Shown one piece after another: positions 28,176 to 45,844 of a stretch of DNA of 64,000 bases. The translations under genes and the position numbers were made by a program. The notes beneath the pieces were generated by a model. That model did not search any database. It worked only from the letters and a program-made list of their open reading frames with translations, and had not been told where the DNA came from. The stretch is taken from assembly GCA_945907065.1 (NCBI GenBank), contig CAMDSC010000008.1:1-64000 (forward strand), read 5' to 3'. Every line of letters starts with the position of its first letter. Positions within the stretch are counted from its first letter, which is position 1. The stretch comes from Chitinophaga pinensis. GTDB taxonomy: Bacteria; Bacteroidota; Bacteroidia; NS11-12g; UBA9320.

Positions 28176-28205
28176 TTTGACATCTAACATATTTTGTTAC
28201 TTTTG
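28176..28205 (+). promoter_or_regulatory. Promoter of the FG-GAP/ASPIC protein gene
   Basis: TTTG (28176-28179), an 18-base spacer and TACTTTTG (28198-28205) match the Bacteroidota consensus with a spacer one base short. The ATG at 28218 lies 12 bases past the -7 box, giving a very short leader. Confidence 0.55.
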
Positions 28206-28217
28206 TCCAAAATCTTT

Positions 28218-30128
28218 ATGAAATCAATTTTCACCTTTTCGCTACTTTTACTTTCTTTTTTTGGTAAATCTCAAGATGCTGGATGGTTTTCTGATATTAC
28301 TCCCGAAACCGGTTTAACAAGCCAAAAGATGCAAAAGACATATTCAGTAGATGTAAATAATGATGGTTTTATTGATTTGATAACTATTACAGGAGTTGAT
28401 TATTTTAATAATCGCAAGCCTATGAAATTATTTATAAATGAACACAATCCTTCCACAAATTCACGAACCTTTACCGATAAAACCGATTGGTCTAAAATAA
28501 ATAGTAATGTAAATGAAACCGATACCGGCCGCCAAACTACTTGTGCCGCCTTTGCCGACGTGGATAATGACGGAGATGTGGACATGGTAACGGCTCATTA
28601 TTTTCATCGAATTGAAAATTATAAAGATGTAGGAGATCGTTGTCAGGTTTTTTTGAATAATGGCCAAGGCCAGTTTAGTATAAAACCTAAAAATGGGTTG
28701 GATGACTTGGGGCTTACCAATACTCAGGGATTGAGTTTTTTGGATTATGATTTGGATGGAAATATTGATTTGTTTATTGGCAATTGGTTTTCGGATTATA
28801 CCAATAATAAAATTCAGAACGATATTTTAATGAAAGGAAATGGCGATGGAACTTTTACCGATGTTACTGCTTTTACCAATATCAATAAACCCGCCAATGA
28901 ACCTTTGTATGGCAGCAGTGCCGGAGATTGGAATAATGACGGTTGGGATGATATTTTTACAGCTTCCTATTGCCGCACAAGTGGAAGCCTTTGGAAAAAC
29001 ACCAAAGATGGAAACTTTGAAAATGTAGCAAAAAATGTTGGTTATAACAGCCAAATAATAAAAGGCGATAATGGGCAGGAGTTGTGCCATTGGGCTGCCA
29101 TGCCTTGCGATTATGACAACGATGGCGATTTTGATTTTTACTTTGCTATGGTTCATGGAGGCAATGATGCCAATGAGGGTCGTTCTACTATTGTTAAAAA
29201 TCAGGGGCCGGATAGCAATTATCAATTGCGTTGGTTTATGGATATAACGCCTAAAATAGTTCCTTATGCCGGACATATAGCCACGTATGATGCCAACTGG
29301 TTTGATTTTGATAATGATGGCCTTACCGATTTGTGTTATGCCGATGGAACGTATGTAGGTGGTGGAAACGGACGATTATTTATGTTTCATCAAAATAAAG
29401 ACCATAAATTTACAGATATAACAAAGGCGCTAAACCTTACCGCCAATAGTAATAAATATATAACTATGAGTATTGTGAGGCCCATAGATTATGATAATGA
29501 CGGGGATGAAGATTTACTAATTTATGGTGGTGGAAGCCCCGGTGTTGGGGTAGTTCCTGTTTTTCTGAAAAATAATATTGGAACCAAAAAGAATCATGTG
29601 GTTGTAAATCTTAAGCCAGCTCGAGGAACCAATGGAAGTTGCATTGGCGCTAAAGTAGTGGTTTATTCAGGTTCATTAATTAAAACCCGCGAGGTTTATG
29701 CAGGTCAAGGAAATGCAGCTGGTCAAGCTCCATTTTCTTTAGTTTTTGGATTGGATAATAATTCGATAATTGATTCTATCGTAGTTACGTTTCCTAATAA
29801 AAAACATCGAAAAATTTTGTTAGAAAACTTGGCAGTAAATCAAAGCTATACCATTTATGATTACATAACCGGAGCAAAAGAAGAAACCTTTACTATATAC
29901 CCAAATCCTGCAAAAAATGTAGTGAACATTGATTTTCCTTACTCAAATACAGAACCAACCAATCTCTCCTTTTATGACTTAACCGGTAAGTTAATTTTAA
30001 ATAAACGTTTCATTGGCGTTTATAATTATGAAAATATTGATATTTCATCATTGTCTTCCGGTTACTATATTATTCAATTGCAATCGGGCAATGGTAAAAT
30101 AAACCGACAGAAATTGTTGGTAGAGTAA
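28218..30128 (+). CDS. Secreted FG-GAP/VCBS repeat protein with ASPIC/UnbV and type A T9SS sorting domains
   Basis: This is a surface or secreted protein. After a signal peptide (FTFSLLLLSFFGKSQ) come at least seven calcium-binding-type repeats with DxDxDGxxD cores (DVNNDGFID, DVDNDGDVD, DYDLDGNID, DWNNDGWDD, DYDNDGDFD, DFDNDGLTD, DYDNDGDED), predicted to form a beta-propeller. An ASPIC/UnbV-type domain follows (GAKVVVYSG to NLAVNQSYTI), then a type A sorting domain beginning FTIYPNPAKN. No catalytic motif is visible. ATG 28218 is preferred over the upstream TTG at 28194 because it starts the signal peptide and follows the promoter. 637 residues. Confidence 0.9.
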   Translation: MKSIFTFSLLLLSFFGKSQDAGWFSDITPETGLTSQKMQKTYSVDVNNDGFIDLITITGVDYFNNRKPMKLFINEHNPSTNSRTFTDKTDWSKINSNVNETDTGRQTTCAAFADVDNDGDVDMVTAHYFHRIENYKDVGDRCQVFLNNGQGQFSIKPKNGLDDLGLTNTQGLSFLDYDLDGNIDLFIGNWFSDYTNNKIQNDILMKGNGDGTFTDVTAFTNINKPANEPLYGSSAGDWNNDGWDDIFTASYCRTSGSLWKNTKDGNFENVAKNVGYNSQIIKGDNGQELCHWAAMPCDYDNDGDFDFYFAMVHGGNDANEGRSTIVKNQGPDSNYQLRWFMDITPKIVPYAGHIATYDANWFDFDNDGLTDLCYADGTYVGGGNGRLFMFHQNKDHKFTDITKALNLTANSNKYITMSIVRPIDYDNDGDEDLLIYGGGSPGVGVVPVFLKNNIGTKKNHVVVNLKPARGTNGSCIGAKVVVYSGSLIKTREVYAGQGNAAGQAPFSLVFGLDNNSIIDSIVVTFPNKKHRKILLENLAVNQSYTIYDYITGAKEETFTIYPNPAKNVVNIDFPYSNTEPTNLSFYDLTGKLILNKRFIGVYNYENIDISSLSSGYYIIQLQSGNGKINRQKLLVE

Positions 30129-30153: not shown

Positions 30154-31782
<1,629 letters not shown>

Positions 31783-31905: not shown

Positions 31906-33987
31906 TTAAATTCTTTCTCTATAAGTTTTAATAAACAAAGCTCCCAAATTTTGATGCGGAGGTATGTAATCATAAAATCGTTCAAGAGCTTCTTTGTTTC
32001 CTTTAAATTTAGTTTCAATTGATTTCCAAAGCAATGCCCAATCCAAATCTTTACCAAGCCGGATGGTTTCATTCATTTGATAAATAACTTCATTATTCAC
32101 CAGCATTGTTCCTATTTGTTTTGAAGCTACAATATGACTTTCTGGGCTTATATCCAAAACCTTGCTAATATTATTATAACCGCCGCAGCTACCTAAAACT
32201 ACTATTCTTGCTTCAGGATTTAATGATTCAATAGTAGCCCATGCGTAAAAACTATGCCCCCTATGTACTACAATTTCGGGCCAACGGCTTTTACTTATAA
32301 AAATATCTCTGATTTCAGTTTGCCCTTCTCCTTCTTTTTCGGGGCGATTGGCGTATATAATAATTTGTTTGCCTTTTTTAGGACTTATTTTAACATAGTT
32401 TTTAAATTCTTCAATTTTCCACTCCAAATTTTTATAACTCGCGATGAACGACTTAAAACTAGCATCGCCATCTTTATCTTTATAAAACATTAACTGCTCA
32501 TAACAAGTATCTGATTTAAAAAGCTGATTGGATGAAATCATCGAAATATTTGGATAATTAGAGGCATTTTTATTTGTAATAATCTCTAATAAAAGTTCGT
32601 ATAGTTTAGAGGCTTCAAAATTTCCGTTTCCGGTTACCAAATAAAAATAATTGGTAATCAATTTTTCCAATTGTTTTTTTGTTGGTTCATCTTTTAGGCT
32701 GCCATAAGTATCAGCAACTGTAACTGCATTCTCAAGATTGCCACTCATTTCTTCCAAACCTTCACAAAATTTATGGAATAAACTATTTTTTTCATCAGCT
32801 GTTAGTTTAGTAAGTAAAGAATTTAATGTATTGTAGCCAGCACACATTTTAATAAACTTACGAAATTTAAGCCAGTTCTGTTCTTCTAAAAAGACAAAGT
32901 AAGATTTGTCATTAATTTTAGAGTCCATTCGTTTGTACAATCCAATAAAGGTGGAAGTATAAATTTCACTCTCCCCCATCACAATCAATGCATAAATTTC
33001 ATTTGCTTTAAGATTATTTATACTTGCAAAGCGAACTTCGTCCTTTTCTTCGTGCAAATCGTTAATTACCTTTATTTGTTTCAAGCAGAGTTCTTGTAAT
33101 TCCTTTTCGATTGTATATCTGGCGGTAACCTGATTTTTATTAATTAATTCAATAAGCTTTTTCATATAAATAATGGGCTCACTACTTAACTTATCAGCAT
33201 TTGAAATAGATATTTTTTTAGTATTAATATCCTCTAAAAATGAGTAGGCAAGACTTTTTAGCCCCACTTCATTATAAATTTTTACAAACGTTTTCATCCA
33301 GTCATTTTCTGAATTTCGGATGTTTGTATTTATAGCATTTTGAGAATAAAGATATCCCTTAACTTCTCCAGGAGCATATTTTACAAGTTCCAAAAGCACG
33401 GTGTCGGCATATGTCTGCTCACTTATTTGTTTAAAATTACCTATTAATTCAGTTGGTGAAATTTTAACAACCTGTAATAAAAATTCTCTACATTCTGACT
33501 TGTTGACATAAAAAGGTAAAATTTTAAGTGCACCAAAAGGATTACTCAACATTACTGGTAATAATCGTGTCAATTCAGTTTCAACCATACACCGGTTTGC
33601 TAAATTAATTTGCGACTCATATTGGGTTGTTAATTCTATATTTTCTCGCTCGATTCTCTTTAAAATATTTAGGACACATTCCAGTTTTGCAAGTTTATTT
33701 TTGTAATTAATCTCTCTTTTTTCAATAAGAAGAATGAGATCATTTACTTTAATAAATAAAGATTGTTGAATTTTATCAGCCAAAGGCTGGTTTTTAAAAC
33801 GTACTTTATTGTCAATAATACTATCAAATAAATCGATTCGTCGTTGTTGGTTTTTAATTTTGCCAACGATATATGATGCAGCATCATTAGGTTGAGCATT
33901 TAATTGCCTAAATGAAAAGCCAATTATTAAAGCTATTAAAAATATAGAATAATTAATAGAAATATTATTTGATCTAGCTTTATTCAA
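31906..33987 (-). CDS. Secreted protein of unknown function with possible clan CD (caspase/CHAT-like) C-terminal domain
   Basis: A 693-residue exported protein (hydrophobic YSIFLIALIIGFSF, cleavage near LNA). Residues ~35-500 are mostly helical, Lys/Glu/Leu-rich, with no recognised family. The C-terminal ~170 residues alternate strands and helices: KQIIIYANRP, then EIVVHRGHSFY (His575, His578), then RIVVLGSCGGYNN (Cys601), then SHIVASKQIG. A hydrophobic strand ending in His-x-Gly-His, followed ~23 residues later by a strand ending in Ser-Cys-Gly-Gly, matches the arrangement of clan CD peptidases (caspases, CHAT, gingipains). This is my inference; family membership is unverified and the domain could be inactive. 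ATG start; no operon partner. Confidence 0.7.
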   Translation of the reverse strand: MNKARSNNISINYSIFLIALIIGFSFRQLNAQPNDAASYIVGKIKNQQRRIDLFDSIIDNKVRFKNQPLADKIQQSLFIKVNDLILLIEKREINYKNKLAKLECVLNILKRIERENIELTTQYESQINLANRCMVETELTRLLPVMLSNPFGALKILPFYVNKSECREFLLQVVKISPTELIGNFKQISEQTYADTVLLELVKYAPGEVKGYLYSQNAINTNIRNSENDWMKTFVKIYNEVGLKSLAYSFLEDINTKKISISNADKLSSEPIIYMKKLIELINKNQVTARYTIEKELQELCLKQIKVINDLHEEKDEVRFASINNLKANEIYALIVMGESEIYTSTFIGLYKRMDSKINDKSYFVFLEEQNWLKFRKFIKMCAGYNTLNSLLTKLTADEKNSLFHKFCEGLEEMSGNLENAVTVADTYGSLKDEPTKKQLEKLITNYFYLVTGNGNFEASKLYELLLEIITNKNASNYPNISMISSNQLFKSDTCYEQLMFYKDKDGDASFKSFIASYKNLEWKIEEFKNYVKISPKKGKQIIIYANRPEKEGEGQTEIRDIFISKSRWPEIVVHRGHSFYAWATIESLNPEARIVVLGSCGGYNNISKVLDISPESHIVASKQIGTMLVNNEVIYQMNETIRLGKDLDWALLWKSIETKFKGNKEALERFYDYIPPHQNLGALFIKTYRERI

Positions 33988-34034: not shown

Positions 34035-34571
34035 CTATTTAGTTTTAGTTATCAATTCCCACAAGGCAATTCCAAAACTCACAGCCACATTAAATGAATG
34101 TTTTGTGCCAAATTGAGGTATTTCCAAAATTGCATCACACAATTCCAAAGCTTTGTCACTAATTCCTTCCACTTCGTTACCAACAATTATTACTATAGGT
34201 TTTGATTCTGGCTCAAAATTACGAATATCTATGCTTTTGTCAGTTTGTTCTAGTCCTGCAATAATGTAGTTCTCGTTTTTTAATGTGTTGATAAGTGTTT
34301 CAATATCCTCATGATATTCCCAGTCAATACTGTTCTCAGCACCTAGAGAAGTTTTATGAATATCGCGGTGTGGTGGCCTTCCGGTAATTCCACATAAATA
34401 AATTTGACCAATTCCCAAACAATCACATGTCCTAAAAATAGACCCCACGTTGTTCATACTTCGCACATCATCAAGCACTACCACAACTTGCTTTTTTTCT
34501 TGACTTTTAAAATCGTCAATTGATAGGCGATTTAGTTCTATATTCTTTAATTTGCGGACTCTTAAATCCAT
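34035..34571 (-). CDS. SpoU/TrmH-family RNA 2'-O-methyltransferase
   Basis: This cytosolic SAM-dependent methyltransferase has the trefoil-knot (SPOUT) fold. Motif 1 is VLDDVRSMNNVGSIFRTCD, motif 2 IVIIVGNEVEGISD and motif 3 LEIPQFGTKHSFNVAVSFGIALWE. These are TrmH motifs. With ~178 residues there is no extra RNA-binding domain. The target nucleotide is unknown. The frame stays open to 34628, but ATG 34571 gives the compact form and avoids overlap with the divergent mutS start a few bases away. Confidence 0.92.
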   Translation of the reverse strand: MDLRVRKLKNIELNRLSIDDFKSQEKKQVVVVLDDVRSMNNVGSIFRTCDCLGIGQIYLCGITGRPPHRDIHKTSLGAENSIDWEYHEDIETLINTLKNENYIIAGLEQTDKSIDIRNFEPESKPIVIIVGNEVEGISDKALELCDAILEIPQFGTKHSFNVAVSFGIALWELITKTK

Positions 34572-34578
34572 ACTCGTT

Positions 34579-37179
34579 TTGTGTGCAAAAATAGCTGATA
34601 ATGAAACACCGTTGATGAAACAATACAACGAAGTGAAACAAAAGTATCCAGGTGCTTTAGTTTTATTTCGTGTGGGAGATTTTTATGAAACTTTTGGCGA
34701 AGATGCCAAAAAATCGTCTCAAATTTTAGGAATTACCTTAACAAAACGGGGAAATGGCAAAGCCAACGAAGTAGAACTTGCCGGTTTTCCGCACCATTCA
34801 CTGGATGTATATCTTCCACGATTGGTTAGAGCAGGACAACGCGTTGCAATCTGCGATCAATTAGAAGACCCAAAACTTACCAAAACAATTGTAAAGCGTG
34901 GGGTTACGGAATTGGTAACTCCTGGAGTAAGTATCAATGATAAAATTTTAGAATCAAGGCAAAATAATTATTTAGCCGCTTTATTTCCTGGGCAAAATAA
35001 ATTTGGGGTTTCGTTTATTGACATTTCAACCGGTGAGTTTTTAACCGCTGAAGGAGATGCAGATTATATTATTAAGCTGTTTCAAAACCTTAAACCCTCT
35101 GAAGTTATTTATCCCAAATCGTTCCGTTCAAAATTTGAAAATCAATTTGGAGATTTTTATACCTACACCTTAGATGACTGGATTTTTGAACAAACCTTTG
35201 CGGAAGAAAAGCTCCTCTCCCATTTTAAAACTGCTAACCTTAAAGGATTTGGAATAGATGAACTAGTTTTGGGAATAACAGCGGCAGGAGCCATTATTCA
35301 TTATTTAAATCAAAACCAACATACCAATTTAATTCATGTTAGCACTATTTCAAGACTTGACAGAGACGAACACGTTTGGTTGGATCAGTTTACAGCAAGA
35401 AATTTAGAGTTAATCTACAGCAATCATCCGCAAGGCAAATCACTCCTAGAAATATTAGATAATACCCAAACTCCAATGGGGGCCCGTTTGCTTCGCAAAT
35501 GGCTTGTTATGCCGCTTAAAGATAAGTTTAGAATAAAGCAACGATTGGATACAGTTGATTTTGGGGTAACTCATTCTGAATTTACCAAAGATTTGAGGCA
35601 TAAACTTACCCGAATTGGGGATTTAGAACGTTTAATTACAAAAGTTTCTTTGCTTCGAATAAACCCAAGAGAAATTATAGCCTTAGGAAGAGCCTTGGAA
35701 ATCGTTGCTCAAGTAAAGGAACTTTGCAAAATAACACAACACGAGGAATTGATGAGTTTGGCGGATAAACTTAATCCTTGTGAAGTTTTATTAGATAAAA
35801 TTAAAACAGTCATAAATCCTGAACCGCCAATGCTTACTAATAAAGGTGATATTTTCAAAGAAGGATTTAATACTGAACTTGATGAATTGCGGAGCATCGC
35901 TTTTTCAGGAAAGGATTATCTATTAAATATTCAAAAACGGGAAGTTGAACGAACCGGAATAACAAACCTTAAAATTTCCTACAACAACGTATTTGGGTAT
36001 TTTTTGGAGGTAACAAATAGTCATAAAGATAAAGTTCCTGCCGAATGGATTCGCAAGCAAACCCTTACCGGTGCAGAACGTTACATTACTCAAGAGCTTA
36101 AGGAATACGAAGACAAAATACTAACAGCCGAAGATAAAATTTATGCCATCGAGGCTAATTTATATAAGGATTTTGTGGAGTTTACTTCCGGATTTTTTAA
36201 TCCTGTGCATACCAATTCTCAAGTTATCGCCCAATTGGATTGTTTGCTAAATTTTTCAGAGTTGGCTCTTAAAAATAATTATTGCAAACCTGAGATTAAT
36301 GATTCAACCTCTTTAACAATAAAAGATTGCCGCCATCCGGTTATTGAAAAACAATTGCCTTTAGGAGATGAATATATCCCGAACGATATTCATTTAGATA
36401 GAGAAACTAATCAGGTTATCATTCTTACAGGGCCTAATATGTCTGGTAAATCTGCTATTCTTAGACAAACAGCTTTATCTGTTTTATTGGCTCAAATGGG
36501 AAGTTTTGTGCCTGCTAAATATGCTGAGATTGGTATCGTAGATAAGATTTATACCCGTGTGGGGGCTTCTGATAATATTAGTCAGGGTGAAAGTACATTT
36601 ATGGTGGAAATGATAGAAACAGCCAGTATTCTTAACAATTTAAGTGAACGAAGCTTGGTTATTTTAGATGAAATTGGCCGCGGTACCAGTACATTTGACG
36701 GTGTTTCACTGGCCTGGGCTATTGCAGAGTATTTGAATCAACACCCAACAAAACCTAAGACCTTTTTTGCTACCCATTACCATGAATTAAATGAGCTGGA
36801 AGGTAAGAATGAAGGAGTGGTAAATTTTCATATCAGTACAAAGGAAACCAATACCAAAGTGATTTTTTTGCGCAAGCTAACCAAAGGAGGCAGTGAACAT
36901 AGCTTTGGTATTCATGTAGCTAAAATGGCGGGTATACCAACAAAAGTAGTAAGCCGTGCTGCTAAAATATTAGTAAACTTAGAAAAAGACCGTGCTATGG
37001 CAAGTAGTAAGGAAGTAACAAAAAAGCTTGAAAAGCATGATTACCAATTAAATTTGTTTCAATACAACGACCCAAAATTGGTGAAATTGTCAGAGGAACT
37101 TCAAAAATTGGATACCAACATCCTTTCGCCCATTGAAGCGTTATTAAAGTTGAATGAGTTGAAAAATATTGTGAATTAA
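34579..37179 (+). CDS. mutS: DNA mismatch repair protein MutS
   Basis: This ATPase recognises mismatches. The N-terminal mismatch-binding domain has ETPLMKQYNEVK and FRVGDFYETFGEDA (the Phe-x-Glu of mismatch contact lies in this region). The C-terminal ATPase shows Walker A GPNMSGKSAILRQ, the Walker B stretch SLVILDEIGRGTSTFDG, and ATHYHEL. About 867 residues, normal. The frame is open from a TTG at 34552. The nearest ATG (34615) would remove the ETPL motif, so I prefer TTG at 34579, which gives the usual short N-terminal lead. It is divergent from the TrmH gene, with almost no gap. Confidence 0.95.
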   Translation: MCAKIADNETPLMKQYNEVKQKYPGALVLFRVGDFYETFGEDAKKSSQILGITLTKRGNGKANEVELAGFPHHSLDVYLPRLVRAGQRVAICDQLEDPKLTKTIVKRGVTELVTPGVSINDKILESRQNNYLAALFPGQNKFGVSFIDISTGEFLTAEGDADYIIKLFQNLKPSEVIYPKSFRSKFENQFGDFYTYTLDDWIFEQTFAEEKLLSHFKTANLKGFGIDELVLGITAAGAIIHYLNQNQHTNLIHVSTISRLDRDEHVWLDQFTARNLELIYSNHPQGKSLLEILDNTQTPMGARLLRKWLVMPLKDKFRIKQRLDTVDFGVTHSEFTKDLRHKLTRIGDLERLITKVSLLRINPREIIALGRALEIVAQVKELCKITQHEELMSLADKLNPCEVLLDKIKTVINPEPPMLTNKGDIFKEGFNTELDELRSIAFSGKDYLLNIQKREVERTGITNLKISYNNVFGYFLEVTNSHKDKVPAEWIRKQTLTGAERYITQELKEYEDKILTAEDKIYAIEANLYKDFVEFTSGFFNPVHTNSQVIAQLDCLLNFSELALKNNYCKPEINDSTSLTIKDCRHPVIEKQLPLGDEYIPNDIHLDRETNQVIILTGPNMSGKSAILRQTALSVLLAQMGSFVPAKYAEIGIVDKIYTRVGASDNISQGESTFMVEMIETASILNNLSERSLVILDEIGRGTSTFDGVSLAWAIAEYLNQHPTKPKTFFATHYHELNELEGKNEGVVNFHISTKETNTKVIFLRKLTKGGSEHSFGIHVAKMAGIPTKVVSRAAKILVNLEKDRAMASSKEVTKKLEKHDYQLNLFQYNDPKLVKLSEELQKLDTNILSPIEALLKLNELKNIVN

Positions 37180-37201: not shown

Positions 37202-38674
37202 ATGCGATTACTCCTAATATTACTTTTTACTTCACTTAGTTTTTTTAAAGCTTTTGCCCAAACCAACTATTGGATTTTTTTTAAGAGCCCCGCTCCTGTT
37301 CAATCTGTAAATCCCTCCTATCTTAAAAAAATAGCTTCTAAAAATGTTAAAGTTATTGGAACCTCTAAATGGTTCAATGCTGCCTATGTTTCAGTAAATG
37401 ATTCAGAAAGTTTAAGGAAAATTGAAAAGCTTTCGTTTGTAAAAAGCATTGAACAAAGCAGAAAGTATAAGGTTCAAAAATTGGATATTCAATTATTTGA
37501 TTCTTTAAAATATGGTCAGGCAGATGTACAATTAAATATGCTTGGTTTGCAGAATTATCATCGAAAAGGATTTACAGGCAAAGGTGTTAAAATAGCCTTG
37601 TTTGACGGAGGGTTTTATAAAGTTGATAGCATCGTTGCCTTTGACAGTTTGAGAAAACGAAACGGAATATTAGCCACTCGCGATTTTTATGATAACAATA
37701 GCCATGTCTATGATGACGATGCTCATGGAATGTATGTTCTATCTCTTATTTCAGGCTATGTAAAAGACTCTATGTTTGGCTCTGCCCCTGATGCCAATTT
37801 TGTTTTGGCTAGAACCGAGTTTGTAGCTACTGAAAAGCATATTGAAGAATTTAACTGGATTAGAGCATTGGAATGGGCCGATTCCATTGGGGTGGATATC
37901 ATTCATTCATCCTTAGGCTATTCCCAGTTTGATACCTTAGAAGGCAATTATACCTACAAGGACATGGACGGTCAAAGTACAATAATAACACGAGCCGCTG
38001 AAATGGCATACAGTCGTGGTATTTTTATAACCAACAGCGCCGGTAATGAAGGACAAAAGCCTTGGCATTATATCACCGCTCCTTGTGATGGTAAAAATGT
38101 GTTGTGCATTGGGGCAGTTGATTCATTTGAGCACCATGCCAAATTTTCAAGTTACGGACCAAGTTCAGACGGACGAGTGAAACCGGATGTGATGGCTATG
38201 GGTAAAAATGTAACGATTATAGGAACCAATAATATTATGCGTCGTGGAAGCGGAACATCGTTTTCAGGACCAATAATGGCAGGGTTTGTGGCGTGTCTTA
38301 AGCAAGCCTTTCCTAATGTGAGTAATCCTATTCTGCTAGATGCCATCCGCAAAAGCGGGCATTTGTATAAAACACCCAATGATAGTCTTGGATACGGAAT
38401 ACCTGATATTAATAGAGTCGATTCATTAGTTCGTTTAAAACTTTTAAGTACCTCCATTGCAAAACAAAAATTTAAAGCTTTTCCAAATCCGTGTCATTCT
38501 GTATTAAATTTTGAAACAACTATTCCTTTAAAAAATATAGAAATGACGGATGTTCTTGGTAAATCGTATTTTCCAGTTTTAAATAACAATTCCATTGATA
38601 TGAGTGGTTTTAATCCGGGTATTTATTTTATAAAGTTTGAAAATTTTGGGGTTCAGAAGGTTGTCAAGATTTAA
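37202..38674 (+). CDS. Secreted subtilisin-like serine peptidase (S8) with type A sorting domain
   Basis: An exported protease secreted through T9SS. Signal peptide 1-20 (FFKAFAQ), a propeptide-like region (~22-110), then an S8 domain with Asp135 in KIALFDGGF, His175 in DDAHGMYVL, oxyanion Asn in NSAGNEG (~282) and Ser353 in GSGTSFSGP. The triad is complete. The C-terminal ~75 residues from FKAFPNPCHSV form a type A sorting domain. 490 residues. It follows mutS by 22 bases, but nothing else connects the two genes. Confidence 0.93.
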   Translation: MRLLLILLFTSLSFFKAFAQTNYWIFFKSPAPVQSVNPSYLKKIASKNVKVIGTSKWFNAAYVSVNDSESLRKIEKLSFVKSIEQSRKYKVQKLDIQLFDSLKYGQADVQLNMLGLQNYHRKGFTGKGVKIALFDGGFYKVDSIVAFDSLRKRNGILATRDFYDNNSHVYDDDAHGMYVLSLISGYVKDSMFGSAPDANFVLARTEFVATEKHIEEFNWIRALEWADSIGVDIIHSSLGYSQFDTLEGNYTYKDMDGQSTIITRAAEMAYSRGIFITNSAGNEGQKPWHYITAPCDGKNVLCIGAVDSFEHHAKFSSYGPSSDGRVKPDVMAMGKNVTIIGTNNIMRRGSGTSFSGPIMAGFVACLKQAFPNVSNPILLDAIRKSGHLYKTPNDSLGYGIPDINRVDSLVRLKLLSTSIAKQKFKAFPNPCHSVLNFETTIPLKNIEMTDVLGKSYFPVLNNNSIDMSGFNPGIYFIKFENFGVQKVVKI

Positions 38675-39226: not shown

Positions 39227-41569
39227 ATGAAATTGAGTATTAAACTTTTCGTTTATTTTAGTTTACTCACATTTAACTCTTATGCTCAAGTTAATAGTCT
39301 TCAAAAATTAATAACCAATTCCGCATGGGATTCCTTATTTCCGAAGCGTGCAGGCACTTATGGAACTCATCCTCAGGGTTACACTTCCGATTTTTATTCC
39401 TTTAAAAATCTCAATCAGGCTGCCAATGAAATGGCCGATTACTTTGTACTAATTCGAACAAAAAAAGGTGTTTGGGGTCAACTTATTACTGTCACCAGAA
39501 AATCTAATTTAAAGACTTATAAATATTCAGATGTTGATTCCTGGTGGTATTCAAATACAACACCCGAAACCATAGTAGTCGTCGATTTTGAAGATTTTTT
39601 GAATGAAAACTCCCAAACAAATAATAAGCGTGAATTAGCAGCTTTTCTAGCCAATATATCGAAAGAAACAACGGGAGGATGGGAAACTCCGGTGGGTGGA
39701 GGTTCGGCTGGAGATTATGCTAAATGGGGTCTTTACTTCGTTCATGAGGTTGGTTATAACCGAACCAATGGTAAGGGCACCTACTCACAAACAAATGCTG
39801 AATATCCTCCGGATTCAAGCGTTGGATACTATGGAAGAGGTCCTATTCAATTATCATGGAACTACAACTACGGGCAATTCAGTAAATTCATTTATAATGA
39901 TAAAAACGTATTGTTAAAATATCCTGACTCGTTACAAGAAAATGGGGTTTTAGCATTTAAAAGTGCTATTTGGTTTTGGATGATGCCCCAATGTCCTAAG
40001 CCTTCCTGTCATCAGGTGATGCACGATCAATGGTTACACGACAGCGCTTATTCGTCCTCTAAAATGTATTATAAAGGTTTTGCTCATACCAATAATATCA
40101 TTAACGGAGGGCTTGAATGCAGATCATATTCCTCCTCTGCCTTCACCCAAAAAGTAGTTTTACGTTCAAAACTATACAAGTATTATCTTGGAATAATGGG
40201 CTTTAATTCGATTGGAATTTCTAAAGAAGATTCTCTCGGATACTCTACTTTATGCTATTCTTCATCTTCAAATGCCATGCAAGATTATGTGAATTGCAAA
40301 GTCGATAAATCATATCTTGGTTCTTTTGGTATTGATACTAAAAAAGCTTGTGGATCTTTAAAATGGATAGACGGCAAGACGTATACAAAAAATACAAAAA
40401 CAGCCAAATTTAACATTGTTAAAGGGGATAAAAACGGAAATGACAGCTTGGTAATATTAGACCTTACAATTAAACCAATCTCAAAAAGTACGGATTATCG
40501 AACCGCCTGTCATTCTTTTACGTGGATGGATGGAAAAACCTATACAGCCAGTAATGATACTGTAATATACCGCATAACTGGTGCTGCTGCAAATGGATGT
40601 GATAGTATCGTTTATCTAAAATTAACCATTCTTCCAATTGCTTTAGGCATTGATAAACAAACTTCATGTCAATCTATTACTTGGATAGATGGAAAGACTT
40701 ACACAGCTAGCAATGATACTGCTATTTATCGCATTAAAGGTGGGGCCGCCAGTGGTTGCGATAGTATTGTTAAACTCAAATTAACTATCCTTCCAATTGC
40801 TTATGGAATTGATTCACATTCGACATGTAATTCTTTTTCCTGGATTGATGGAAAGACTTATAATGCAAGCAATGATTCGGCTAAATACCGTATTGTAAAT
40901 GGTGCTTCAAGCGGTTGTGATAGTATTGTGACGCTTAATTTAAAAATTCTACCAATCACTTTTGGTATCGATAATCAAAAAGTTTGTAATTCGTTTACCT
41001 GGATAGATGGAAAGACTTACACAAAAAATAATGATTCGGCTACTTTCCTAATTTTGGGTGCTGCTGCCAATGGTTGTGATAGTTTGGTTACCTTAAATTT
41101 AACTATCAATACTCTAAATGTTTCAGTAATTCAAGATAGTTTAGTGCTTACAGCTTCGTCCGTGGGTGACTCTTACCAATGGGTTGATTGTAAAAACGGA
41201 TATACTCCTATTAAAGGTGAAACTAACCCATCCTTTATGGTAAAAAGAAACGGAAGTTATGCTGTAATCATTACTAAAAATGGTTGTGTTGATACCTCTG
41301 ATTGTTATACCATCGCTAATTTGGATATTAATAAACTCAATCCATCAACCTACTTAGTGGTATATCCAAATCCTAGTAATGACAATTTTTTAATAAACTT
41401 TTCAGGACAATCAAAAGAGCTCTATTTCATAACAGATATTGCAGGAAAGGTCATTCGGTTGGATTATTTGCACTATGGCATCAACGTAATTTCCTTAGAA
41501 AATGAATTATCCGGTGTTTATTTTCTTAAGGTAGGAGCAAATTATTTTAAGTTATTAAAGCAACATTGA
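39227..41569 (+). CDS. Secreted GH19 chitinase-like enzyme with five 53-residue repeats and type A sorting domain
   Basis: An exported 780-residue protein. A signal peptide (VYFSLLTFNSYA) precedes a glycoside hydrolase family 19 domain at ~25-330, with the catalytic Glu likely Glu147 in SKETTGGWE, and the substrate-cleft motif YYGRGPIQLSWNYNYGQF. Five tandem 53-residue repeats run from residue 375 (CxSxxWxDGKTY ... GCDSIVxLxLTI), followed by ~65 residues and a type A sorting domain (YLVVYPNPSND). GH19 enzymes cut chitin or related beta-1,4-GlcNAc polymers; lysozyme-like action on peptidoglycan is also possible. All repeats are in frame. Confidence 0.9.
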   Translation: MKLSIKLFVYFSLLTFNSYAQVNSLQKLITNSAWDSLFPKRAGTYGTHPQGYTSDFYSFKNLNQAANEMADYFVLIRTKKGVWGQLITVTRKSNLKTYKYSDVDSWWYSNTTPETIVVVDFEDFLNENSQTNNKRELAAFLANISKETTGGWETPVGGGSAGDYAKWGLYFVHEVGYNRTNGKGTYSQTNAEYPPDSSVGYYGRGPIQLSWNYNYGQFSKFIYNDKNVLLKYPDSLQENGVLAFKSAIWFWMMPQCPKPSCHQVMHDQWLHDSAYSSSKMYYKGFAHTNNIINGGLECRSYSSSAFTQKVVLRSKLYKYYLGIMGFNSIGISKEDSLGYSTLCYSSSSNAMQDYVNCKVDKSYLGSFGIDTKKACGSLKWIDGKTYTKNTKTAKFNIVKGDKNGNDSLVILDLTIKPISKSTDYRTACHSFTWMDGKTYTASNDTVIYRITGAAANGCDSIVYLKLTILPIALGIDKQTSCQSITWIDGKTYTASNDTAIYRIKGGAASGCDSIVKLKLTILPIAYGIDSHSTCNSFSWIDGKTYNASNDSAKYRIVNGASSGCDSIVTLNLKILPITFGIDNQKVCNSFTWIDGKTYTKNNDSATFLILGAAANGCDSLVTLNLTINTLNVSVIQDSLVLTASSVGDSYQWVDCKNGYTPIKGETNPSFMVKRNGSYAVIITKNGCVDTSDCYTIANLDINKLNPSTYLVVYPNPSNDNFLINFSGQSKELYFITDIAGKVIRLDYLHYGINVISLENELSGVYFLKVGANYFKLLKQH
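40349..41143 (+). repeat. Five tandem 159-bp coding repeats
   Basis: Repeats start at 40349, 40508, 40667, 40826 and 40985, each 159 bp (53 codons) with no length variation. Repeats 2-4 are the most alike, repeat 1 the most diverged. The conserved core TGGATnGATGGAAAGAC recurs with few changes in all but the first copy. Confidence 0.93.
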
Positions 41570-42320: not shown

Positions 42321-44333
42321 CTATTCTACAATTTTAAAGGTTACTGAATATACATTGGCACTTCCTTGTGGCACGTTTGGCATTTTAGGGCCACGGCTGC
42401 CACCTGTTTTGTATGATTCTGAAAATAACACAGAAAAAGGATTTGCATCTTTATCACCGCGGCTTGATTCGCCTCGGGTAGTAATAATGGATGAAAGATC
42501 TAATGGCGTTTCAGTAGCTATCAGTTTAAAAACTTCATTGCCTGTTGGAGGATAAAATACAATGATATCATCATCGCCCAATTCTTTGGTTTCTCCCGGA
42601 TTAATTCTATAATCCAAAGGCAAACGGCCCGTGTTTGCATTAGGCACAACTAGGTTTATCACATTGTCAGGCTGGATATCAATAATTGAAAAATAAAGTG
42701 GCTTAGTTCCATTATTGGTAATTTTAATTTTATAAGCTTCTTCGGCTTTAAAAGTCATTACTCCGGTTTCATCTATTTTAGATTTAATATCACCACGTGA
42801 TTTTTCTTTTACCTTATCTCCTTCCGTTACTACCTCAATCGGAATAAACTCAAAGGTTACATCCATTTTGGCATCCGTTACATCCAATCCTCTAATATAG
42901 GAAGCCTGACTAAAACTTTTCACTTTTTCAACAACTGATGCAGCAGTTAAAGCAATGTTACTGTTTACTGTTTCTTCCAAAAGTATGGCATCATTGGCCG
43001 AAGTAAGTTTTATTTGGCTACCACGACTATGGGTGTTTCCTTCGTCTACAATTATATCAGAAGCACCATCTTTAACAGTTTTTATAAACGGATAATTAGC
43101 AAATTCAGCTAATATGGCATTTTTTAATGCTTCGTTACTTACTTCCAGTTTTACTTTTATTTCAAGACTTCCATAGTTTTTTTCAGTTACAAATATCCAT
43201 GAACCCAACGCTGCATTTTTATCAAGCGGAGCATCTAAGGTTACTACTGAATTTGTAAAGGTTGAAGAGGTTACTATACCTGTAGCCTTTGGTTTGGCTT
43301 TACTCACATCTTTGGTGTCAATAGCATAAAAAGCAACTTTAGTATTTGTAAATAAACCTAATAGTTCACCACCATTTATAACTACTTCCTTATCACCATT
43401 CCATTTCTCTACTTTAAAATAATCCAGTTTGCCAGCAATCTTACCACCCAATATGCTATAATCTAAGTCACCTTCGGCTTGAGGAGTTTGGCGTGGGGCA
43501 AAGCCACTCATTTCCACTTTTATTTTATCAAACAAACCACGGTAGGTTGAATTTTTATCGGCATTGGCAAATACTCGACTAAATGCATAACTTAATGAAC
43601 CAACCCCATTTCCTTTTTCATCTTCAGTTTCATAATTTAATTCATGTGGGCTTGCTCCAAAAAAACCAACCATTGAAGCCATTTTATCTGAAGAATGAGG
43701 ATTTGCTGATACACCATTATTATCTGCTTTTTTATCTTTTACAGTTTCTGCGTAACCATCCGACTCTAAAGGTTTATCCGTTCCTCGGTGTTTTCCTCCA
43801 CCTCTCGTTCCTGTTCCTGAATGGCAGGCATCCAATATCACCATCACGTTTCCTTTTTTGCCTAATTTTGTTCTTAATATATCCATCTGAGCTCCCAATT
43901 CTTCATCACGAATATGATTTTGACCAGTGTAAACTCCAGGTTGGTATCTAACTTTGGCATTGTATGAAACCAAGGCTTCATCATAGCCATCAATTTCATC
44001 ACCGTTATCATCCATTATTTGCTGGCCATGGCCTGAGTAATGAAAAACAGCTATCCCATCTTTTGTAGATTTTCCTATCAAATGGGTTTTGATGGCGTTC
44101 ATAATTCCATCTTTAGTGGCTGCTGCATCACTTATAACCAAAATATCCTTATCTAGAAATCCTTGTTTAATAAGGGCAGCTTTAATAAGAGGCACATCGT
44201 TTTGAGAACTGATACTGCTCCAGCCGCCGTTGGGTTCATAATTACCGATGGCTACAATAAGGGCAATTTTACTTTGAGCTTGCGCAAATATTCCTACAAA
44301 GAAAAGGGCTACTAGGATGAGATATTTTTTCAT
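42321..44333 (-). CDS. Secreted caspase-family (C14) peptidase with DUF4384-like domain
   Basis: An exported 670-residue protein. Signal peptide 1-20 (cleavage near AQAQ), then a caspase/metacaspase p20-like domain with catalytic His102 in FHYSGHGQQI and Cys170 in VILDACHSGTGTR. A region of beta strands follows, then a DUF4384-like beta domain (~520-610: KIKITNNGTKPLYFSII, VNLVVPN, NPGETKELG). Members with this layout are found in Bacteroidota and Proteobacteria; substrates are mostly unknown, and Lys/Arg specificity is assumed for metacaspases. ATG 44333. It lies 34 bases downstream of the frameshifted HtrA-like gene on the same strand and has its own terminator, so the two probably form an operon. 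Confidence 0.9.
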   Translation of the reverse strand: MKKYLILVALFFVGIFAQAQSKIALIVAIGNYEPNGGWSSISSQNDVPLIKAALIKQGFLDKDILVISDAAATKDGIMNAIKTHLIGKSTKDGIAVFHYSGHGQQIMDDNGDEIDGYDEALVSYNAKVRYQPGVYTGQNHIRDEELGAQMDILRTKLGKKGNVMVILDACHSGTGTRGGGKHRGTDKPLESDGYAETVKDKKADNNGVSANPHSSDKMASMVGFFGASPHELNYETEDEKGNGVGSLSYAFSRVFANADKNSTYRGLFDKIKVEMSGFAPRQTPQAEGDLDYSILGGKIAGKLDYFKVEKWNGDKEVVINGGELLGLFTNTKVAFYAIDTKDVSKAKPKATGIVTSSTFTNSVVTLDAPLDKNAALGSWIFVTEKNYGSLEIKVKLEVSNEALKNAILAEFANYPFIKTVKDGASDIIVDEGNTHSRGSQIKLTSANDAILLEETVNSNIALTAASVVEKVKSFSQASYIRGLDVTDAKMDVTFEFIPIEVVTEGDKVKEKSRGDIKSKIDETGVMTFKAEEAYKIKITNNGTKPLYFSIIDIQPDNVINLVVPNANTGRLPLDYRINPGETKELGDDDIIVFYPPTGNEVFKLIATETPLDLSSIITTRGESSRGDKDANPFSVLFSESYKTGGSRGPKMPNVPQGSANVYSVTFKIVE

Positions 44334-44367: not shown

Positions 44368-45844
44368 CTAATAGTAAATGGTTGATTTAATAATTGTGCT
44401 TTCACCCGAAAGATATTGGCGATATAATTGTGCTTGAGCTGAAGGATCTTTGGCATCTGATAAATAATAATCAAACACACCACTAAGACTGCTCAATTTA
44501 ATAGCTGCTCCCAATTGGGTTAAGGTTAACACTTTCCACATATTTGGGTTGTTTTCATTATAAATACCACCGCATAAAACGTAGTAAGTTTTTTCGTATG
44601 CTCCATCACCTCGTTTATTTTGATAAAACTTTTTTTCTTCTTCTTTTTTTGTATACTGATTTCCTCCTTCATTGTAATCAAATGCCACTTGACCATAAGA
44701 AGTATTTAAGGTAACTCCTGGTATTTGGGTTAATACATAACCAGCAATTGCTTCTAATTCAATATTTCTTAATGTGCCTGCAGTAAAGTTAATATTTTCA
44801 ATAGCTCCAGAAGGAGATTTAATTTCAAGACCAACTTTACCATTAGGAGCAATTTTTTCAAATTCACCTAATACTTCTTCCACGTTGCGAGTTGCAACAC
44901 CATTTACCTTAGTTATAAAATAGCCAATTTTACTACCCATATAACTATAAGCATTGCTACCAGGTATTACTCCATATATTTTTGCAGCCTCATCCTGAAG
45001 TGTATAGTTTTCGCCATCTACTTTGTAGGCTTGAGCTACTTCAAGACCAATATAAGAACGCTTAACACGACCATTATTATTCAATACTTCGTTAATTAAC
45101 CGTTCAGTTATTTTTGGTTCCAATGAAAAATTTATTTGTTGTTGTAATACTTGAGATCCATCAGGAGCAGTTGCAAAAGCAATTTGAGAGTTAACACCTA
45201 CTACTTCACCTTTTTCATTGATTAATGGTCCACCGCTGTTTCCCCAAATAATGGTAGCTGTATGTTGTAAAAATCCGAACTTACCTGTTAATCCACCTCT
45301 TGCACGGTTTTTAGCACTAATAATTCCATCTGTTACACTATATGGATAACTACCCAATGGATTTTATAATGGCAAATACTCTATCCCCTACCATTGGCTC
45401 TGTTTTAGTAAATTCTACCACAGAAATTTCCGAACCTGGTGTAGTTACAAATTCCAATACAGCTAGGTCATAAAACGAATCACCGCCTAATACTTTACAC
45501 TCATATTTTGTTTGATTAATGCTAAAAACATAAATACTTCCACTTTCGGTTGAAGCAGATTCAACCACGTGAGCATTAGTAATTACGTAATACTTACCAT
45601 TTTTTTTAATAATAAATCCTGAGCCACTTCCTTTGGCATTAGTAAGGTCAAGAGCTTGCTTATAGGCATCTTCCGAAACACTTCCTCGCATTCCTAAAGT
45701 CATTTTGCCATAAGGCTCAGTTTGATAAACGGCAACGGTTACTACCGCTCCAAGGCATTTGTCTAATACTGCTGAAGCAGATTGAGCAAATGAAGAAACT
45801 ACTAATAAAAGTAGTGCTGAGATTGTTAAGATTGATTTTTTCAT
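44368..45844 (-). pseudogene. HtrA/trypsin-like serine protease gene with a frameshift
   Basis: Two frames together encode one exported S1C-type protease of ~490 residues. The first (45844-45350) has a signal peptide (ILTISALLLLVVSSFAQ), His92 in ITNAHVVES and Asp126 in FYDLAVLEF. The second (45357-44368) has the Ser in IWGNSGGPL, a PDZ-like stretch and a unique C-terminal region. The break falls in GDRVFAI, where the family continues GNPLG. Removing one base from the A4 run (T4 on the plus strand, 45362-45365) restores AIINPLGSYPYSVTDG. This could be a real mutation, an assembly error or a slippery site. No ATG starts the second frame. Confidence 0.85.

Follow-up and report, generated by a model that had tools for sequence, protein, structure and literature searches.

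A large, undescribed family of exported proteins, one of which is encoded in the window (the whole stretch of 64,000 nucleotides that was analysed), carries a histidine and a cysteine that were unchanged in every one of 280 distinct C-terminal domains. We put the probability at roughly one half that the protein is a cysteine hydrolase acting outside the cytoplasm, in the periplasm or secreted, and most likely an endopeptidase working like a compact clan CD enzyme. The observation itself is real and well conserved. From it we infer the nucleophile and base roles of the two residues, proteolysis, and a housekeeping function in the processing of an envelope or secreted protein. The protein is near-core in large bacterial families and its putative active site is absolutely conserved, yet it is nameless in Pfam, NCBIfam and the PDB. 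Should it prove to be a protease, these bacteria probably use it as a core enzyme of the envelope, and the caspase-like enzymes would gain a compact, divergent kind. Since there are two candidate residues and usually a single gene per genome, the proposal is directly testable.

The gene, its product and the conserved residues

The initial annotation described a large secreted protein in which about 500 residues that matched nothing known precede a hydrophobic strand ending in HRGH and a second one ending in GSCGG about 23 residues later. The open reading frame proved exact and lies on the minus strand (Table 1), while the plus strand of the same interval is full of stops. A close relative has an ATG start four codons upstream of the called TTG. 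The hydrophobic N-terminal stretch ending in LNAQ looks like a type I signal peptide, and a heuristic scan of 182 family members found an N-terminal hydrophobic segment in 179, a lipobox-like N-terminus in one and a further transmembrane-like segment in none. Export of the family protein is thus read from sequence.

Table 1. Positions in the window of the family gene, its sequence features and the adjoining upstream gene.
Feature	Position	Strand	Description
SpoU/TrmH-type RNA methyltransferase	34035..34628	minus	directly upstream, same strand; neighbour across families f1/f2; not part of the mechanism
Family gene	31906..33987	minus	one ORF, read 33987→31906; 693 aa; TTG start as called
Signal peptide, residues 1-32	33892..33987	minus	putative, from sequence; hydrophobic core followed by LNAQ; lipobox absent
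N-terminal all-helical region, residues 40-470	32578..33870	minus	predicted (AlphaFold2 secondary structure, conservation); carries family-invariant H312, R319, T344
DxDG, residues 504-507	32467..32478	minus	nearly invariant (278/280, 275/280, 277/280); start of C-terminal domain
HRGHS, residues 575-579	32251..32265	minus	loop after hydrophobic strand; candidate catalytic His578; conservation in 280 domains
GSCGG, residues 599-603	32179..32193	minus	loop after next hydrophobic strand; candidate nucleophile Cys601; conservation in 280 domains
SKQIGTMLVN, residues 622-631	32095..32124	minus	conserved segment after Cys; G626 280/280, N631 279/280; weak couplings
WALLW, residues 650-654	32026..32040	minus	on predicted helix; W650 280/280, W654 279/280

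Both motifs were found as described, HRGH at residues 575-578 within the wider string VVHRGHS (573-579) and GSCGG within VVLGSCGG (596-603), and Cys601 stands 23 residues after His578. A lack of conservation of the histidine and cysteine had been named beforehand as refuting the reading; His578 and Cys601 were kept in 280 of 280 domains, tandem paralogues included, and in relatives from Azospirillum. Equally invariant were R576, G577, S579, G599, G602, G626, W650, Y674 and P677, followed by N631 (279/280) and His575 (278/280), in place of which two members have Asn and Gln. An alignment of 176 members gave the same picture (His578 and Cys601 176/176, His575 174/176), and HRGHS and GSCGG were invariant among 58 orthologues. 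The annotation had offered either His575 or His578 as the partner of Cys601. Since His578 is invariant while His575 varies, His578 and not His575 is the candidate base. The Azospirillum proteins retain HRGHS, GSCGG, DxDG, G577, G599, G602, G626, N631, W650 and W654. The pattern of a hydrophobic strand with GH[GSA], 12 to 80 residues and a hydrophobic strand with xC occurred in one of the 56 open reading frames of the window and 0.04 times per residue-shuffled window, although this pattern was defined with the sequence already in view and its chance level comes from the window only. H312, R319 and T344 are invariant in the helical N-terminal part, which is unusual for a mere scaffold, and R319 and T344 are kept in Azospirillum as well.

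Searches of Pfam, NCBIfam, PADLOC and PDB sequences with single proteins and with profiles returned no family above cut-off, in line with the annotation's statement. PADLOC models gave no match at E 0.1 for three family members, and no relatives of the family were found in viral contigs and phages. Glycerophosphodiester phosphodiesterase, which has an HRG motif, was considered and rejected: there HRG is followed by a conserved Glu-Asn-Thr on a TIM barrel, whereas in the family the positions after HRGHS include no conserved acidic residue, His575 can be exchanged and only about 115 residues remain.

Comparison with clan CD peptidases and the predicted fold

Clan CD enzymes have a strictly conserved His-Cys dyad with the His first, as the family does in 280/280 domains. 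A Gly before the catalytic His is a further clan CD trait (PMC12445089), matched by G577. The C11 enzymes of the clan carry His-Gly and Ala-Cys motifs (PMC12445089), in contrast to the His-Ser and Ser-Cys of the family, where the residue after His578 is Ser in 280/280 and the residue before Cys601 is Ser in 274/280 and Ala in 4/280. The spacing also differs. The 23 residues that the annotation took for clan CD core geometry are short against caspase-7 (His144/Cys186, spacing 42) and MARTX-CPD (His91/Cys140, spacing 49) (PMC4357240), and YabG (His161/Cys207, spacing 46; PMC12445089) completes a range of 42-49, about twice the family value. YabG, a Cys protease whose sequence does not resemble the clan, was recently put forward as a clan CD member (PMC12445089), and like the family it has a His-Cys dyad that sequence searches do not recognise. 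It was argued into the clan by motif and function, as a sporulation protease with His-Gly/Ala-Cys and demonstrated activity, while the family protein is exported and its activity is a prediction.

The bacterial C14 and CHAT domains (PF00656, PF12770) share with the family a His and then a Cys, each after a hydrophobic strand, and a Gly before the His; the strand order before the His is predicted to differ. The helical part ahead of the C-terminal domain recalls TPR-CHAT proteins and separase, which carry helical repeats ahead of a C-terminal protease domain, and the separase His-Cys spacing of about 26 is closer to 23. Some 8 kb from the family gene the window encodes a genuine C14 caspase (42321-44333) whose HYSGHG ... 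VMVILDAC is similar to VVHRGHS ... IVVLGSC. Gingipain/PorU peptidases (C25, PF01364) are, like the family protein, exported and common in the same bacterial class, but the family has neither a C25 profile match nor a T9SS C-terminal domain. The source genome carries its own C25 elsewhere.

We compared the C-terminal domain by hhalign with alignments of CHAT, C14 and C25 sequences taken from Bacteroidia loci, using reversed and column-shuffled decoys. In the low-scoring alignments to CHAT and C14, His578 and Cys601 fell on the catalytic pair of those families (P 0.06-0.09). In this underpowered test the matches to CHAT, C14 and C25 were not significant (P 0.02-0.09 for CHAT and C14): CHAT scored 22.18 against 22.01 for a column-shuffled decoy, and the other profiles scored no better than the best decoys. 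Since the positive control, the true clan CD pair CHAT-C25, also failed, the comparison neither proves nor refutes clan CD.

AlphaFold2 was run on the full-length protein and separately on the C-terminal domain, with four input sequences. The full-length model was of low confidence (pLDDT 54.3; best at residues 300-410, about 80) and showed an all-helical region at 40-470, probably a solenoid, followed by an alpha/beta C-terminus. The domain-only model, also of low confidence (pLDDT 47.3), contained the same elements, namely strands at 523-527, 531-536, 542-545, 572-576 (leading into the His loop) and 594-598 (leading into the Cys loop), and helices at 556-566, 579-589 and 603-611 and from there to the end. 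Couplings were computed from 280 sequences (effective number 170). The pairs 528-533, 525-534, 522-538 and 535-543 describe an antiparallel meander of the first three strands, predicted at 521-528, 531-538 and 541-547. A strong coupling at 573-593 and weaker ones at 575-600, 576-599 and 577-599 indicate that the His and Cys strands run parallel, an earlier run paired 581 with 603 and 606, and weak couplings at 595-618 and 597-621 suggest a further parallel strand after the Cys strand. Residues 622-631 would form the end of that strand and the following loop, a candidate substrate-pocket region.

Weak models and couplings together thus support a strand arrangement in which His578 and Cys601 probably lie adjacent where two neighbouring parallel strands end, as they do in clan CD enzymes. 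The caspase-haemoglobinase core is a sheet of order 2-1-3-4 with helices 1-3 (PMC4357240), and the predicted strands before the His look unlike its canonical beta1-alpha1-beta2-alpha2 lead-in. The predicted antiparallel meander ahead of beta3 would count against this core if the weak predictions hold. The proposal of a clan CD dyad holds in part, in the conserved His and Cys and their predicted placement; the AlphaFold2 models behind it are of low confidence, and neither Foldseek nor the profile comparison was significant. We regard membership of the family in clan CD as no more than plausible, one defining motif of the clan being absent.

The alternative that survives best, although we think it unlikely, is a cysteine enzyme on another Rossmann-like alpha/beta fold, with a class I amidotransferase/DJ-1-like or alpha/beta-hydrolase-like elbow, which would act as an amidase, thioesterase or transferase and whose dyad would have evolved separately. 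GSCGG, with G599 and G602 invariant, fits Gly-x-Nuc-x-Gly and equally the Gly-x-Cys-x-Gly elbow of other Cys enzymes; GATase_3 (PF07685) and the class I glutamine amidotransferases have, like the family, a strand and then a Gly-x-Cys-Gly-Gly elbow. GATase_3 was weakly resembled by 13 of 49 members, with the match spanning the Cys region, and Amdase gave weak matches in several, but all of these lie below every curated cut-off. The meander before the His would suit such a fold. If the family belonged to the class I amidotransferases, then its catalytic His should follow the Cys by about 80 residues; no His after Cys601 was conserved, either among the 176 aligned members or in the 280 C-terminal domains.

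An improbable reading is a non-hydrolytic one, in which the two motifs HRGHS and GSCGG serve to bind a metal or a cofactor, or Cys601 is redox-active or structural. His575, His578 and Cys601 are possible ligands and the invariant residues are clustered. The replacement of His575 by Asn and Gln speaks against it, as does the single invariant Cys in a Gly-rich loop after a strand, the usual form of a nucleophile.

Foldseek searches with the low-confidence models gave no significant match and no caspase-like chain in the best 50. The top matches of the domain model were RNase H-like proteins (the C-terminal half of UvrC and retroviral integrases), and the predicted meander would fit an RNase H-like fold of three antiparallel strands, helix, strand, helix and strand, unrelated to proteases. 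We give this reading little credence, since the best E was 0.014 at TM-scores of about 0.2 with a model of pLDDT 47, no acidic residues are conserved within the predicted strands, the protein is exported, and there is weak coupling evidence that the Cys strand is followed by a third parallel one. A catalytically dead scaffold keeping an old active site is hardly credible, as His578 and Cys601 were never lost in the 280 domains, paralogues included.

For an exported cysteine peptidase of the clan CD type, Cys601 would attack the substrate from the end of one parallel strand, and His578, ending the strand beside it, would act as the base. The invariant Gly residues would shape the active-site loops, and the conserved segment 622-631 after the next strand may line the substrate pocket. 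The substrate, which would be a protein of the envelope or a secreted one, could be held by the long helical solenoid of the N-terminal part, whose task may be to present or restrain it for the cut. The complete proposal is that of an undescribed family of exported peptidases that make a housekeeping cut in an envelope protein. They would combine a helical solenoid that holds the substrate with a caspase-like core reduced to a minimum (spacing 23, antiparallel lead-in replacing beta1-alpha1-beta2-alpha2), and they would be near-core among large families of Bacteroidota and present also in Azospirillum. This proposal is tentative and, with all its parts taken together, doubtful.

Distribution and genomic context of the family

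When whole genomes were searched, 42 of 58 relatives and 64 of 108 genomes of the gene's own order proved to have an orthologue, at 30-83% identity; most genomes of the window's own family have the gene. A second, unexpected reservoir is another family of the same class (f37, more than 100 genera; judging by its size perhaps the Chitinophagaceae), with the gene in 116 of 119 genomes and, in a wider sample, in 357 of 376 (about 95%). Copy number is mostly one gene per genome, although some f37 genomes carry two or more, in tandem in several. Class- and phylum-wide sampling found the family almost nowhere beyond these clades. A tblastn search of plasmids recovered four Azospirillum (Alphaproteobacteria) proteins, annotated as hypothetical, with E down to 3e-31 and 17-19% overall identity. 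With these members the family spans two phyla and is near-core in a few clades. A DUF1194 gene adjoins the family member in three of the four Azospirillum plasmids, which suggests an old transfer and a different partner.

In the window the gene is flanked by pyrG (CTP synthase, 30154-31773) and the RNA methyltransferase, with mutS divergent beyond. The methyltransferase lay upstream on the same strand at 35 of 56 f1/f2 loci. Of 120 f37 loci, 83 have a PhoB-type response regulator upstream on the opposite strand, and in 44 an MsbA-type ABC exporter follows downstream on the gene's own strand; at others PPK2 follows or SHMT precedes the family gene. The context is housekeeping in character and varies between clades, at most a hint of envelope function. 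Because of these housekeeping neighbours and the near-core, mostly single-copy distribution, the roles in defence or secretion processing that had been suggested are not indicated. An anti-phage role was rejected for a near-core gene with housekeeping neighbours and no PADLOC match.

Other proteases and secreted proteins are encoded nearby. The C14 caspase lies on the minus strand and carries a C-terminal DUF4384; beside it, a trypsin-like protease domain extends over two slightly overlapping minus-strand reading frames (44368-45357 and 45350-45844), possibly through a frameshift. T9SS sorting tails were present on three nearby secreted proteins, an FG-GAP/UnbV protein (28194-30128), a subtilase S8 (37202-38674) and a GH19 chitinase (39227-41569).
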